Shown here in pieces: positions 16,310 to 23,068 of a stretch of DNA of 45,679 nucleotides (positions within the stretch are counted from its first letter, which is position 1; each line of letters starts with the position of its first letter). A program made the translations under genes and the position numbers. The stretch covers positions 1 through 45,679 of the forward strand of contig JAAYLU010000018.1 in assembly GCA_012521675.1 (NCBI GenBank), in the 5' to 3' direction. The DNA comes from Synergistaceae bacterium. Lineage in GTDB: Bacteria > Synergistota > Synergistia > Synergistales > Aminobacteriaceae. The notes under the pieces were generated by a model. It did not search any database. It was given only the letters and a program-made list of their open reading frames with translations, and was not told the origin of the DNA.

Positions 16310-16538
16310 ATCGGGCCTCCTTTTCAGATCTTCGTGCTTAAAGGGATTTTAGCACATGGCTGAAAAACCGTTGCCGAGGGGCCTGGGAAGCATTCGACAA
16401 AAAGCAGGTCGGAGTATATGAATGCCGTCGAAATCCATGATAGAATCTATCCAATTGGAATTCTTCAAGTGATATTGGCCTTTACTGTACCGCTTCTCCA
16501 CTGACATGGCTCAATGGCGCCGAGAGAGGGATTGCAAG

Positions 16539-18992
16539 ATGAAGAGGATCACCCGCGCTAGTCTGTTTTTCACCAAGGGAACGAACTTGCTGTGCGTACT
16601 GCTGGCGATCGTTGGTTGCTTGCTCGGCCTGGTGGAGGCCAGGCGTGCTCTGGACTTCAAGCGAACCGAGCTGTTGACTGCGGCCAGGACGCTTGGCGAG
16701 ACGATCAATCCATGGCGCGTGAGGGAGCTGCAGGCAACGCCATCCGACGTGGAGGACCCCGCATACACGAGGCTATCCGAGCAGTTTATCTCTATCCTGC
16801 CCGTGCTTGCGCCCGTCCTGTCGGTCTCCCTTATCGCAGAGTCGCAAGACGGAGGAGCGGTCTACCTGGTCGACGCTCGCTCGACAGGGGGGGCGGGGCC
16901 CGGCGAACGCTTCCATCCGCCCTTTGACGAGTTCGTCACAGCGTTTCGCTCCGGCCAGCCGATAGTGAGCTCTCCCTACAGGGCGGGCGACTCGAATCTT
17001 TGGGCCGCTGTCGTGCCCTTGGCGTCAGCGGGGAAGGGCGAGCCCGGGGTCGCCGTCATGCTTCAAGCGGAATACCCGGACTACCGCAGGCTCCTGGGGG
17101 AACGGGCGCTGGTGCCGTTGTGCGGTGGCGTCCTGCTCATTCTCGTCATCCAGGCGGGACGCCGGGCCGTCGCCCGACCGCGAAAGCCCGGCCTCCTGCT
17201 CGCGGAGTCGCTGTGGGCTCTGTCAATCGGACTGGTCCTGACCGGCCTGTTTTCGCGAGGGGCCGACTGGTACGAGTTTCGCACTCAAAGGAGTGCCTAT
17301 TTTACCCTGTCCTACCTCGAGTCCGGCTTTTTCCTCCGGGAGCTCAAAGAACTGAGGGACGGGTACCTCGAGGCGCTCGGGCGTTTCTTCGAGAGCAGCG
17401 ACTATGTCGATCGCGACGAGTTCGGCAGGTACGCCGAGTACCTGGCCCGCGTGCCATACATCGACGCCGTAGCCTGGGCCCCGGCTTCGTACGTCCATGG
17501 CGACGATCGACCCTCCTTCGTCGTTGTCTACTCAACGCCGGAGGACCGACCATTCTTGCCCGAGGGAAAGGATCTCTCCTTCGCGCAGCCCATGGAGGAG
17601 GCCGTAAGAGTCCTGTTGGCCGAGCGGCTTTCCACCCTCTCCGGGGTCCTGCCCGACGGTGACGGCGCGTGCAGGAAGGCGGCGCTCAGAATGGTCGTGG
17701 ACCCCTCGGGCTCGACTGTGGGCATCGTAGCGATAGTGGTGAACCTGGAGGCAATGCTCGGCGGCTCCATGTCCGGCAGCGACGAAGTAGGAGAGGGCGT
17801 GATGGATGTGCGGCTCGCCCGCGTCCTGCCCGACGGGAGCTCTCAGAGCCTGTTCGCCCTGCCCCGCGAGGTCGCCTCGGAAATGGATGGAGAGGCGCTC
17901 TTCCGTTCCGTGCGCCCGCTGTTCATGATGGGGCAGGTCCTCGAGCTGGAGACTCGGCCGGGATCCTTGTTCCACGCCATGCATCCGAGGGTTGCGGGCA
18001 GGGTCGCTATCTACTCGGGGGTTCTTGTGTCATCGCTGGTCGCGCTGCTAACGGGGCTCTTTTTCAACTGGCGCGGTGCTACGCTGCGCTTCGTGGAGAT
18101 CAAGACCGCCTCCCTGGCAGAGAGCGAAATGCAATCGAAAAAACTGGCACATCTCTACCGCTCCATATCCGAGGGGGTGGTGATAGTGGATTCCAAGGGC
18201 TTCATACAGGACTGCAACCCGGCCCTCGAGGAGCTGACAGGCTTTACCCTCGCCGAGATGCGCGGCCATAAACCGTCGCTCTTCGCTGCGAGGGAGGGGC
18301 AGTTCGGCCGGGCCTTCATCGAAGAGCTGAAATGTACCGGCAGTTGGAGCGGCGAGGTGCTGCACAGAAAGAGGGACGGCGAGACGTACCCGGTCTGGCT
18401 CTCCATCTCCGCTGTTTCGGACGGGGACGGCGACCCGGAGCACTATTCCGGGGTCTATCGGCACATAGGAGGTTTAAAAAGGGAGCAGGAGAGGCTGACC
18501 CGGATGGCCTACCACGACTTTCTAACCGGCCTGCCCAACCGGGCGCTGCTTATGGACCGCATCGAGATCGCACTGGCCAGGGCCAGGCGCGAGCGCACCA
18601 TGGCGGTTTTACTCTTTGTGGACCTGGATTTTTTCAAGAGGGTAAACGACACCTTTGGACACGAGACAGGGGATGCCCTGCTTATAGAGGTAGCGAGGAG
18701 AATGAGGGAGACACACCGGGAGCAGGACACGGTCGCTAGGCTGGCGGGAGACGAGTTCGTCATCCTGTTCGAGGCCTTCAGCCAGGAAAAGGGATTTGAG
18801 AGCATCCTGTCGAACATGAGAGGGCTGTTCTCGCAGCCCTTTCGCGTAATGGGTCATGAGATCCGCATAGACGCCAGCATAGGCGTCTCTCTCTACCCGA
18901 GGGACGGTATCGACGCAAAATCTCTGCTTGCCGCCGCCGATAGGGCAATGTACGCCGAGAAGAGAGAGAAAAAGGCGCGGGAGGAGACGTGA
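16539..18992 (+). CDS. Membrane CHASE-PAS-GGDEF diguanylate cyclase
   Basis: From ATG 16539 the protein has 817 residues. It has an N-terminal membrane segment, an outer region, further membrane segments near 190-250, a CHASE-like sensor region (LSYLESGFFLRELKEL to about 420), another membrane segment near 490-510, a PAS domain (about 540-650) and a C-terminal GGDEF domain. The active-site loop reads AGDEF (736-740) in place of GGDEF; several such variants are active cyclases. An inhibitory RxxD site (REQD, 727-730) stands at the correct distance, so cyclic di-GMP feedback is likely. A frame also opens at ATG 16506, but GAGAGAGGG at 16522-16530 fits the inner ATG better. Confidence 0.87.
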   Translation: MKRITRASLFFTKGTNLLCVLLAIVGCLLGLVEARRALDFKRTELLTAARTLGETINPWRVRELQATPSDVEDPAYTRLSEQFISILPVLAPVLSVSLIAESQDGGAVYLVDARSTGGAGPGERFHPPFDEFVTAFRSGQPIVSSPYRAGDSNLWAAVVPLASAGKGEPGVAVMLQAEYPDYRRLLGERALVPLCGGVLLILVIQAGRRAVARPRKPGLLLAESLWALSIGLVLTGLFSRGADWYEFRTQRSAYFTLSYLESGFFLRELKELRDGYLEALGRFFESSDYVDRDEFGRYAEYLARVPYIDAVAWAPASYVHGDDRPSFVVVYSTPEDRPFLPEGKDLSFAQPMEEAVRVLLAERLSTLSGVLPDGDGACRKAALRMVVDPSGSTVGIVAIVVNLEAMLGGSMSGSDEVGEGVMDVRLARVLPDGSSQSLFALPREVASEMDGEALFRSVRPLFMMGQVLELETRPGSLFHAMHPRVAGRVAIYSGVLVSSLVALLTGLFFNWRGATLRFVEIKTASLAESEMQSKKLAHLYRSISEGVVIVDSKGFIQDCNPALEELTGFTLAEMRGHKPSLFAAREGQFGRAFIEELKCTGSWSGEVLHRKRDGETYPVWLSISAVSDGDGDPEHYSGVYRHIGGLKREQERLTRMAYHDFLTGLPNRALLMDRIEIALARARRERTMAVLLFVDLDFFKRVNDTFGHETGDALLIEVARRMRETHREQDTVARLAGDEFVILFEAFSQEKGFESILSNMRGLFSQPFRVMGHEIRIDASIGVSLYPRDGIDAKSLLAAADRAMYAEKREKKAREET

Positions 18993-19094: not shown

Positions 19095-19739
19095 ATGAGA
19101 TCAGGAGAGGTGCGTTCGAGCGAGTTTGAGGCGGCGTTGATAGCTCTGAACCGTCTCGAGGTATCGCGGCTTCTCACCGACGAGAGGGACGAGCGTCCGG
19201 TCGCGGTCCGTGTCGAGCAGGACGTGGTGCCGGCGATGGAGAGGCTGGGCAGGCTGTGGGAGGACGGGAAGGTCTCCCTCTCGCAGGTCTACATGAGCGG
19301 AAGGATATGCGAGGAGCTGGTAGGCAGGCTCCTGCCGCAGTGCGCCGAGCCATCGGACGGCGAGGCCAGGATAGGCTTGGCGGTGCTGGAGGACAGGCAC
19401 ATGCTCGGCAAGAGAATGGTTGCGGCCACCCTCACAGCGGCGGGGCATACCTTCTTCGACTACGGAAGCACGAATGCGGACACTCTGGTCGAGCGCGCCG
19501 GGGCCGACGGCGTGGATCTGCTGCTGGTGTCCACCCTGATGCTCAACTCCGCTCTCAGTGTGAGGAGGGTGCGCGACGGGCTGAACCGCCTGGGGCGTCC
19601 GGTAAAGATCGTGGTCGGAGGCGCGCCCTTCCGCCTGGAGCCGGAGCTGTGGCGCGAGACAGGTGCGGACGCGATGTGCAGGAACGCCAGTGAGGTCGTG
19701 TCGATGATTGCTCGGTTTTCCGGGGGTGATCTGCTATGA
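19095..19739 (+). CDS. Corrinoid (B12)-binding methyl-transfer protein
   Basis: The 214-residue protein has a helical N-terminal cap (about 8-85, with PAMERLGRLWEDGKVSLSQ) and a cobalamin-binding domain. The DxHxxG motif is EDRHMLG (D100, H102, G105), where H102 would coordinate cobalt; the VVGGAPF strand follows near 170-176. Proteins of the MtaC/MtbC type carry a methyl group between two methyltransferases. Ribosome site GGAGGTGA (19083-19090) fits ATG 19095, although GTG 19092 is also in frame. It overlaps the next gene by four bases. No substrate-specific MtaB/MttB-type methyltransferase is in view, so the methyl donor is unknown. Confidence 0.88.
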   Translation: MRSGEVRSSEFEAALIALNRLEVSRLLTDERDERPVAVRVEQDVVPAMERLGRLWEDGKVSLSQVYMSGRICEELVGRLLPQCAEPSDGEARIGLAVLEDRHMLGKRMVAATLTAAGHTFFDYGSTNADTLVERAGADGVDLLLVSTLMLNSALSVRRVRDGLNRLGRPVKIVVGGAPFRLEPELWRETGADAMCRNASEVVSMIARFSGGDLL

Positions 19740-20785
19740 AGCGCGAATCAATATCCTCGATGGACAGGGTGCTGACGGCCCTCTCGCTGAAGGAACCGGA
19801 CAGGGTACCGTGGTTCCCCCTGCTGACCATGATCGGTGCAAGGGAGCTTGGGCTCTCGATAAAAGAGTATTTCTCCAAGGGATCCAACGTGGCCGAGGCC
19901 CAGCTCCGGATGAGGGAGAAGTTCGGGCACGACTGCCTCTACTCTTTTCTCCATGCGTCCGCCGAGGTGGAGGCGTGGGGCGGCGAGACCATCTACTACG
20001 ACGAAGGGCCGCCGAACTGTGGGATGCCGCCTCTGACGGACCAGGAGCTGATAATGTCCCTTCGGCCTCCGAGGGTGAAGGACTCCCCGTCCCTGCTGAA
20101 GACCCTCGATGCCATAAGGCTCATGAAGGAGAAGGTCGGAGACGAGGTGCCGATCCTCAGCGTGGTCATATCCCCCTTCTCGCTCCCTGCGATGCAGATG
20201 GGGCTTGAGAACTACTTGATACTGCTCCACGAGAGGCCGGATCTCTTCGCGCGGTTGATGGAGCTCAACGAGGAGTTCACCGTCGAGTGGGGCAGGGCGC
20301 AGGTCGAGGCGGGCTCGACCGCTGTCGTCTATTTCGACCCGATATCGTCGCCCACAATACTGCCGAGCGAGCGGTATCGCGAGACCGGTTTCCACATCGC
20401 CAAGCGCACGATCTCCCGCATCGGAGGTCCTGTGGCCATGCACTTCGCCTCCGGAAGGAGCATCCCCATCCTGGACTACGTGCTGCAGACGGGTGTCGGA
20501 GTGCTCTCCGCCGGCTGCGAGGAGGACCTGGGCGAGCTGAAGCGGCTCACCGAGGGCAGGATCGCCCTGGTTGGAAACCTCAACGGGCTCGAGATGAGGA
20601 GGTGGTCCCCCGCCAAGGCCGAGGAGGAGGTCAAGAGTGCGATAGCCGCCGCCGGTCGGGGAGGGGGCTTCATCCTCTCCGACAGTCACGGCGAGATACC
20701 CTGGCAGGTCTCCGACGATGTGATCCTAGCCATGGGAGAGGCGGTGCGCAGATGGGGAGTGTATCCGCTCGACTGGCTGGACTAG
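19736..20785 (+). CDS. UroD/MtaA-family methyltransferase with altered metal ligands
   Basis: The 349-residue protein is a TIM-barrel member of the uroporphyrinogen decarboxylase/MtaA family, whose corrinoid-linked members move methyl groups between a corrinoid protein and a thiol. Family landmarks are MDRVLTALSLKEPDRVP at the start, VVYFDP near 198-202, and GNLNGLEM near 280-287. The usual zinc set, His-x-Cys plus a later Cys, is changed: MHFAS (H236, A238) and LSDSHGE (H318) where a Cys is expected. It may therefore bind metal differently or have no thiol activation. It is coupled to the corrinoid gene (ATGA overlap), and its stop is directly followed by the kinase ATG, so the three act together. 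Confidence 0.82.
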   Translation: MKRESISSMDRVLTALSLKEPDRVPWFPLLTMIGARELGLSIKEYFSKGSNVAEAQLRMREKFGHDCLYSFLHASAEVEAWGGETIYYDEGPPNCGMPPLTDQELIMSLRPPRVKDSPSLLKTLDAIRLMKEKVGDEVPILSVVISPFSLPAMQMGLENYLILLHERPDLFARLMELNEEFTVEWGRAQVEAGSTAVVYFDPISSPTILPSERYRETGFHIAKRTISRIGGPVAMHFASGRSIPILDYVLQTGVGVLSAGCEEDLGELKRLTEGRIALVGNLNGLEMRRWSPAKAEEEVKSAIAAAGRGGGFILSDSHGEIPWQVSDDVILAMGEAVRRWGVYPLDWLD

Positions 20786-23068
20786 ATGGCTAAGACGACT
20801 CTTATCCTTTCTTGCAGGGCCCTTCGCAGGGAGATGGAGGCGATCGTCGCACGGATGGACTTGGCCTCCTGCGATGTAGCCTCCTTTCCCTGTGACTGCT
20901 CTTATAAGTCGCCCTCCGCTTTGCCTCTCGACGACGTGATAAGGGACGAGGCGAGTCGCTACGACCGTATTCTCGTCGTCGGCAGCCCCTGCTTGGTGGA
21001 GAGGAGTTCGGGTGCTGAATCCCCCCGCAGTGTCTCGGTCATCGGGCGAAGTTTTGATCTCTTTATGCCCGCGCCGCTCGTCGGGCATCTTCAGGCCGAC
21101 GGCGCCTACCTGATCACCCCCGGGTGGCTGGAGCGCTGGAGGGAGAGGATCGGTGAGGGTTGGGGGTTCGACGACGACGGAGCAAGGAGCTTTTTCGCGG
21201 AGTCGTGCGATCGCTTGATCCTGCTCGACACGGAGGTGTACCCCGACTGCGGCCCGAGCATGGCCGAGTTGGCCGCCTACGTGGACCGGCCATTCCAGAT
21301 AATACCGGTCGGACTGGAGATGGCCGAGCTCCTCCTGGGCGATGCCCTCCGAAGGTTCGAGCCGCGCGGAGGAGAAGCGCCCGCGGCCTCGGAACCGGTC
21401 GGCCTCGCCGCCGACTACGCCATGCTGCTGGACATGATGAGCCGGCTGGTGCAGCACACCGCCGAGGAGGAGATGTTGACCGCCCTGTTCGAGGTGATCG
21501 ACATCCTCTGCGCCCCGTCCTTCCAGGCCTATGTCCCGGTCCTCGACGGAGAGCCGGGGGAGCCGGTCCCCTTCCCCGCATACCGCGAACTGCCCGAGGG
21601 GGCGGTCGAAAGGATGCTGTCCACGGAGGAGTCCTGTTCCTGGTGGGGGGACGATGGGGGCTTCCTGCTTCGCATGCACCGCGAGAGGGAGACCATGGGT
21701 TATCTCCTGGTCGACGAGCTGGCCGTACCGAAGTACAGGGAGCGCTACTTCAACAGCGCGGCCGCGGTGCAGCCGATACTCTCCCTCGCCGTTGCGAACG
21801 TCCGCAGCTACCGCAAGCTTGAGCGCACCAACAAATCCCTCGTGGAGACCATGAGACAGGTGAACGAGATGGCATGCCGCGCGGAGGCCGCAAACGTAGC
21901 CAAGAGCGCCTTTCTCGCCAATATGAGCCACGAGATTCGCACCCCCATGAACGGCATAATAGGCATGATAGAGCTGCTGCTCTCCACCGACTTGGACGAC
22001 GAGCAGATCGAGTACGCCGAGACGGTCAGGAACTGCGGCGACTCCCTGCTAACCCTCATCGACGACATCCTCGACCTCTCCAGGATAGAGGCGGGCAAGC
22101 TGAAGCTCGTGACAGAGGAGCTCGACCTTCGCACGCTGGCCGACGACATTAACGCTCTCTTCTCGGTGCGCGCCAGTGAGAAGGGGCTGGGGTTCCGAGT
22201 CGAGGTCGATCCATGCGTCCCGTCTCCCCTGATGGGGGATCTCGACCGACTTCGCCAGATCTTGGCGAACTTCATAGCCAACGCGGTCAAGTTCACGAGC
22301 GAGGGAGGGATCTCCCTGCACGTAAAGACAATCGAGGAGACGGACAGCGATGTCCTCGTCCGCTTCTCAGTGAAGGACTCGGGCATAGGGGTGGCCGAGG
22401 ACTTGAAGGAACAGTTGTTCGAAAAGTTCACCCAAGTCGACCCCTCCAGCACCAGGAAGTTCGGCGGGGTCGGGTTGGGCCTTGCCATCTCCAGAGAGCT
22501 TGCGAGCATGATGGGCGGAAAAGTGGGCGTCGAAAGCCCCGTGCCGGGATCCCATTCCGGCGGCGGGCCGGGATCCGAGTTCTGGTTGGAGGTGCGCCTT
22601 GAAAAGGGCACCGGGGCCAGGGCGGCAAGCCGTTCCCCGGCGATCGTCGAGCCGGTGGATGTCGACTCGGCCGGTGCCAGGGCGCGGGTGCTGGTGGTCG
22701 ACGACTGTCGCGTGAACACCAAGGTCGCCCTGGTCATGCTGAAAAAACTCGGCCTGGAGGCGGACTCCGCGTCCAACGGAGCGGAGGCGCTTGAGGCCCT
22801 GGGGAGGGCCGATTACGACCTGGTGTTGATGGACGTGCAGATGCCGGTCATGGATGGGGCGGAGGCTGTGAGCAGGATCAAAAGCGACCCCGAGTACTCG
22901 GCATACCGACGCATACCGATAATAGCCCTGACCGCCCACGCCATGGAGGGCGACCGGGAGAGGTACATCGGGCTGGGGATGGACGACTACCTGGCAAAGC
23001 CGGCCACGCTGGACGCCCTCCGCTCAATGCTGCAAAAATGGCTTCCCGAGGACCGGGAGAAGGATTAA
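20786..23068 (+). CDS. Hybrid histidine kinase with DUF1638-like sensor region
   Basis: The 760-residue soluble protein has an N-terminal region (1-190) resembling DUF1638, a domain often found beside corrinoid methyltransferases: [24 protein letters not shown] and [17 protein letters not shown]-like stretch (about 210-345) and a short coiled coil follow. Next come HisKA ([16 protein letters not shown]382), an ATPase with [17 protein letters not shown] and GVGLGLAIS, and a receiver domain with D683 (LVLMDVQMP) and K738. No membrane segment or DNA-binding output is seen. The ATG follows the previous stop with no gap. The sensor likely reads the state of the corrinoid or methyltransferase, which is inference from context. 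Confidence 0.85.

Follow-up and report, generated by a model that had tools for sequence, protein, structure and literature searches.

A URO-D barrel protein without thiol-type zinc ligands is encoded between a corrinoid protein and a DUF1638 receptor and may be part of a corrinoid sensor

Results

Genes for a corrinoid (B12-binding) protein, an MtaA-fold URO-D barrel protein (P0001) and a DUF1638 receptor form a three-gene module in the window, i.e., the 45,679-nucleotide stretch of Synergistaceae bacterium DNA (contig JAAYLU010000018.1) that was analyzed (Table 1). This corrinoid-barrel-DUF1638 module and its signalling role are well supported. On balance, P0001 is probably the barrel subunit of a corrinoid sensor, in which the donor or ligand state on the corrinoid would be read by DUF1638, switching a kinase or cyclase. 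A sequence-only reading of the same DNA had centred on the zinc ligands of P0001; the most telling facts beyond it are that the corrinoid-protein gene overlaps P0001 upstream and that the kinase carries a DUF1638 domain.

Table 1. Features of the module and its surroundings in the window
Feature	Position	Strand	Basis
PAS-GGDEF protein	16506..18992	+	profiles
Corrinoid (B12-binding) protein, 215 aa	19092..19739	+	PF02310, PF02607
P0001, MtaA-fold URO-D protein without His-Cys-Cys zinc ligands, 349 aa	19736..20785	+	ORF, profiles, alignment, structure model
First ligand region, H236-F-A238-S239-G240 (zinc enzymes: HxC-G)	20441..20455	+	alignments
Second ligand region, D316-S-H318-G-E320 (family DNHGEIPWQV; zinc enzymes: GC)	20681..20695	+	alignments
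Hybrid histidine kinase: N-terminal DUF1638, unnamed middle domain, HisKA, HATPase, receiver	20786..23068	+	profiles
DUF1638 domain, aa 1-195 of kinase	20786..21370	+	PF07796; model pLDDT 89.6
Conserved middle domain, aa about 201-350 of kinase	21386..21835	+	no Pfam family

The barrel protein and its zinc-ligand region

P0001 matched the URO-D profile PF01208 at 179.1 bits (cut-off 23.9, E 1.6e-52), which places it in the superfamily, and scored 117.4 bits against TIGR01463 (mtaA_cmuA), below the cut-off of 235.4 for membership of MtaA/CmuA. Its AlphaFold model (pLDDT 94.6) aligned with MtaA of Methanosarcina mazei (4ay8) over 333 residues (Z 41.0, rmsd 2.2, 20% identity; VIA-align), and as modelled this is its closest solved fold; the remainder of the barrel is thus intact, as had been proposed. 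The source genome contains one URO-D protein and one DUF1638 in total.

The S-methyltransferases of the superfamily bind zinc through His-Cys-Cys, as stated in the available part of PMC10418091. P0001 has H236-F-A238 and H318 where zinc enzymes carry His-x-Cys and a later Cys, residue for residue what the sequence-only reading had described. In a pairwise alignment the Cys of the HIC-G motif of MtaA (4ay7) lay opposite A238 and that of PGCG opposite H318; in a multiple alignment the same two cysteines lay opposite S239 and G319, with the family having one extra residue at each place. The ligand register of P0001 is uncertain by one residue, and neither place holds a cysteine in whichever register. 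P0001 contains three cysteines in total (67, 95 and 261), and the His-Cys-Cys ligands of MtaA and CmuA are missing from it and its relatives alike.

A genome scan yielded 190 relatives, and the analysis continued with the 80 best loci (52-84% identity); these were gathered by barrel similarity and the counts given here describe its close family only. The aligned set of 84 rows comprised 83 relatives, some loci having two copies, and the window, with L001-L003 removed as duplicates. Across these rows the altered pocket reads H-x-A-S-G-R and D-N-H-G-E-I-P-W-Q, with A238 in 81/84, S239 in 82/84, D316 in 83/84, H318 in 83/84 and E320 in 84/84; H236 is replaced by Ser or Leu in 6/84. Among 41 aligned members 49 positions of the barrel are invariant. 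Because it is retained family-wide, the altered motif is far beyond chance, and the conclusion that P0001 is without a thiol-type zinc site is supported. C67 is present in 78 of the 84 rows and possibly forms part of some other site. C261, which had been named as a residue that might supply the cysteine ligand from elsewhere in the same pocket, occurs in just 8 rows and is no general ligand. A decayed pseudogene was ruled out, as the gene is intact and overlaps its neighbor and the pocket is conserved.

The family formed a clade with 100/100 support in an unrooted tree built on 19 selected family rows and 53 further rows (72 in all). With two more Cys-less lineages (L161 and L150) it made up a larger clade (100/99) that excluded MtaA, CmuA, HemE and the His-Cys-Cys proteins; it grouped with neither MtaA_4ay7 nor CmuA, the latter on a long branch. 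The sequence-only reading had spoken of cysteines that were lost. Both are indeed absent, but because the tree is unrooted and HemE is also without them, loss cannot be separated from original absence.

The family is widespread and patchy. The 80 loci come from Synergistetes, Desulfobulbaceae and other sulfate reducers, Beggiatoa kin, Allochromatium, methanotrophs, beta-proteobacteria, Chloroflexi, Nitrospirae, Bacteroidetes, SAR324, Riflebacteria, Kiritimatiellia, Spirochaetales, Syntrophomonadaceae and cable bacteria, and members were present in 6/274 genomes of one class and 3/297 of one phylum. In the searched genomes around the window, its own included, 4 of 59 had a family member at at least 49% identity.

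Linkage of the three genes

The three genes of the window overlap or abut in the order corrinoid protein, barrel, receptor: P0001 starts with a 4-base overlap with the stop of the corrinoid-protein gene, and the kinase gene begins on the base right after the URO-D stop. The corrinoid-protein gene starts with GTG, with an ATG 3 bases downstream, and its product has both the cobamide motif (D101-x-H103-x-x-G106, S147-x-L149, G176-G177) and the cap domain. In its relatives H103, the cobalt-binding His, and G106 were each present in 81/81 (residue counts omit corrinoid domains shorter than 160 residues and receptor domains shorter than 140).

In the 80 loci a corrinoid gene lies directly upstream of the barrel in 79/84 copies, and a DUF1638 domain directly downstream in 75/82 assessable copies, which bears out the suggested tie to the neighboring kinase. 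Five copies had no upstream corrinoid gene (L085, L092, L093, L096 and the second half of a broken gene in L101), and seven had no downstream DUF1638 (L037, L045, L091, L092, L093, L094 and L096), the last four of these being followed by another corrinoid or barrel gene. These four loci, from cable bacteria and others, carry doubled or reordered corrinoid and barrel genes before a single receptor.

In control loci, DUF1638 was found downstream of 7/7 family URO-Ds versus 1/48 non-family URO-Ds. The sole exception, L161 (in L167) of Geomesophilobacter, is a Cys-less sister barrel in the order corrinoid protein, barrel, separate DUF1638, kinase, and this arrangement is a split-gene form of the module. 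DUF1638 was also seen upstream of a URO-D of His-Cys-Cys type (L119/L016, one genome) and downstream of a distant URO-D keeping one Cys (L118), cases that either surfaced in searching for DUF1638 or fall beyond the control's downstream count. Because it also stands beside URO-Ds that keep cysteines, DUF1638 accompanies corrinoid systems in general and does not mark Cys-less barrels.

Mean identity over 67 loci was 61% for the barrel, the best conserved of the three, 48% for the corrinoid protein and 33% for DUF1638; the 61% of the barrel as against the 33% of DUF1638 suggests one common ligand and exchangeable outputs. Mirror-tree correlations were 0.74-0.82, with 0/500 shuffles as high, a result that is expected anyway of linked genes and is no proof of contact.

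No widely recurring non-signalling gene family was found near the module in 83 neighborhoods (the 80 loci, L163, L170 and part of the window; ORFs of at least 100 aa, single-linkage clusters, those of 5-7 loci identified in part), hence no metabolic gene that would name a substrate, and no methyl-acceptor gene linked to the module was found. In the plasmid pAZKH of Azoarcus sp. KH32C (L163) the module lies between fae and formylmethanofuran genes and quinoprotein dehydrogenase accessory genes, a neighborhood that hints at methanol or C1 sensing. The PAS-GGDEF protein upstream of the module clustered only with one from a genus-mate (L031) and is probably a local addition. A cobalamin riboswitch was looked for with Rfam, which gave no match of any kind in the window; in the 9 of the 80 related loci that were searched, the only matches were a HEARO RNA and a tRNA, which lie a short way upstream of the Allochromatium palmeri module (L050, 4793-5182, minus strand).

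The corrinoid reductive activase RACo was present in 12 of the 19 module genomes searched, and with RACo in just these genomes continuous Co(I) chemistry is not assured. In-frame stops flagged in RACo genes were absent from the alignment. On the Thiodictyon plasmid pTs417 (L165, 4338-9326) a corrinoid protein, a URO-D, a RACo-type activase and a GAF-GGDEF cyclase are encoded in succession, and the URO-D keeps one of the two cysteines (HTAG / GCEIP). That this sensor-like operon includes RACo speaks for genuine redox chemistry of the corrinoid in sensors of this kind.

The DUF1638 receptor

The presence of HisKA, HATPase and receiver domains identifies the downstream gene product as a hybrid histidine kinase. 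Its N-terminus matched PF07796 at 29.2 bits as a domain alone (cut-off 27) and at 25.3 bits, just under the cut-off, within the whole protein; DUF1638 was matched in 41/41 aligned receptor N-termini at E 0.01 or better. The output in the DUF1638 ORF was a kinase in 48/75, GGDEF in 11/75 and neither in 16/75, the last partly due to contig ends or broken frames. The middle domain between DUF1638 and the kinase or GGDEF part, of about 135 aa, gave no Pfam match over the cut-off in 8 members (one with two weak hits). In another Synergistota family a DUF1638-GGDEF receptor (L169, 5931-7463, minus strand) had no barrel or corrinoid gene by profiles within the 14 kb around it.

Four cysteines recur in the 75 receptor DUF1638 domains, at positions 10 (72/75), 38 (71/75), 69 (73/75) and 89 (70/75). 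The window keeps C10, C38 and C69 and has Ser at position 89; L031 and L032, its close kin, have likewise lost the fourth Cys. Free DUF1638 proteins of the same phylum have Cys, His, Cys and Cys at these positions. Such an exchange of Cys and His is typical of metal sites, and the Cys-[His/Cys]-Cys-Cys pattern of L116-L131 and the window domain looks like a putative metal site. In the model the four cysteines follow the ends of successive strands, which is suggestive only, and fold comparison gave only weak matches of two-lobed Rossmann type (best Z 7.7; PrpR Z 7.1).

Discussion

In the corrinoid-sensor reading that we favor, the barrel would bind a small non-thiol methyl donor or related ligand and present it to the partner's corrinoid, loading or reading the corrinoid protein in the manner of zinc-free methyltransferase I proteins that share the fold. 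The corrinoid would then change state, among Co(I), Co(II) and methyl-Co(III) or between bound and unbound, and DUF1638 would read that state and switch the histidine kinase or diguanylate cyclase. CdmB, a zinc-free enzyme of URO-D fold, is described in PMC13222342 as methylating its corrinoid protein from chloromethane; because CdmB is active without zinc, loss of zinc is not loss of function, and this argues against a thiol partner. In O-methyltransferases of the superfamily the Cys ligands are replaced (PMC10418091). In Phaeobacter, according to mutant fitness, B12-dependent methionine synthesis requires a free DUF1638 whose gene adjoins that of a corrinoid protein (PMC5764234). That methyl transfer occurs, its direction, the ligand and the contact of DUF1638 with the corrinoid protein are matters that we infer. 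The proposal starts from the gene linkage, the cobamide motif, the Cys-less pocket, the identity of DUF1638, the signalling fusions and the split-gene version, all of which were observed.

Membership of the same superfamily and a HemE-like His-Gly near position 318 might suggest that P0001 acts on tetrapyrroles, as an enzyme of the uroporphyrinogen decarboxylase type or of another. We reject HemE identity and regard this explanation as having next to no likelihood, since the hemE model scored 46.9 bits against a cut-off of 303 and the HemE pocket has changed: Leu and other hydrophobics stand in for the second Arg of RQAGRY (0/86 Arg), Tyr, His, Phe or Ala for the Asp (0/86 Asp), and Met, Ile or Leu for the Tyr (0/86 Tyr), positions that we take to be catalytic in HemE. 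A stronger competitor, though still unlikely in our estimate, is that the barrel is a non-catalytic ligand binder that would dock on the corrinoid protein or the receptor as a pseudo-enzyme co-sensor, without methyl transfer. The family-wide absence of both zinc-site cysteines, the replacement of H236 itself in some rows and the near-constant position beside a receptor are in keeping with such a role, but the invariant positions of the barrel and the intact neighboring cobamide motif look like a kept chemical site, and zinc is dispensable in CdmB (PMC13222342, in the part available).

The sequence-only reading had also raised a different metal site (D316/H318/E320, or C67) or a non-thiol substrate, each of which is possible for P0001. 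As a full explanation, a site made of D316, H318 and E320, perhaps joined by H236 or C67, at which an oxygen-type methyl donor (methanol or a methoxy compound, for example) would react is quite improbable. It would account for the near-invariance of these three residues, carboxylate ligands favor oxygen substrates in the superfamily (PMC10418091), and the Azoarcus copy has fae, formylmethanofuran and quinoprotein genes nearby; against this, methylotrophy surroundings occur at that one locus and no metabolic neighbor recurs. We are very doubtful of a variant in which the barrel would methylate the corrinoid protein, whose methyl (or redox) state would then pass to the four-Cys site of DUF1638, turning on the kinase or c-di-GMP synthesis. 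The Ada protein undergoes methylation of a cysteine, and perhaps one DUF1638 cysteine would be methylated in an Ada-like manner. If this variant were true, the receptor would hold the thiol site that the barrel lacks, and metabolic corrinoid systems would use the same adaptor in the form of free DUF1638 proteins.

RdmS, the methyltransferase-associated sensor kinase of Methanosarcina, is reportedly a heme/thiol redox sensor associated with corrinoid methyltransferase genes, and is said to differ from the module in receiving its input without a barrel or corrinoid protein. The coenzyme M methyltransferases MtaA, MtbA and MtsA share the closest fold and a corrinoid-protein partner with P0001, which differs in having no His-Cys-Cys site, a clade separate from MtaA and a signalling operon. 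CdmB of Acetobacterium, compared by description and not by sequence, has the URO-D fold, zinc-free function and a corrinoid partner in common with it, whereas its operon is catabolic and includes MTII (PMC13222342, available part). In the type 1 mlp clusters MtaA-like proteins also accompany a corrinoid protein in non-methanogens, but with His-Cys-Cys, RACE and several Mlps, and the terms histidine kinase and sensor are absent from the available text (PMC10418091). The split methionine synthase of Phaeobacter resembles the module in that a DUF1638 gene adjoins the corrinoid-protein gene and both are needed; it differs in that DUF1638 is a free protein, given no defined function in the sections available, and there is no signalling part (PMC5764234). 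The Mec cassette of dichloromethane fermenters likewise has a kinase gene beside a corrinoid protein and URO-D methyltransferases, although that kinase has a PocR domain, controls a catabolic cassette and carries no DUF1638 mentioned in the available part of the source (PMC9768040). A search of the open-licence PMC literature, outside which subscription journals mostly lie, returned no published description of the corrinoid-barrel-DUF1638 module; its parts are known, and their combination as a receptor appears to be new.

If the corrinoid-sensor reading is true, corrinoid methyl transfer would here serve signalling rather than metabolism, and the strong selection on a zinc-less MtaA-fold protein would be explained. 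DUF1638, known mainly from mutant fitness, would gain a role as a reader of corrinoid proteins. Sulfur oxidizers, cable bacteria, sulfate reducers, methanotrophs and Chloroflexi would then have in common, across many phyla, a B12-based input that senses one-carbon or methyl compounds on behalf of kinases and c-di-GMP.
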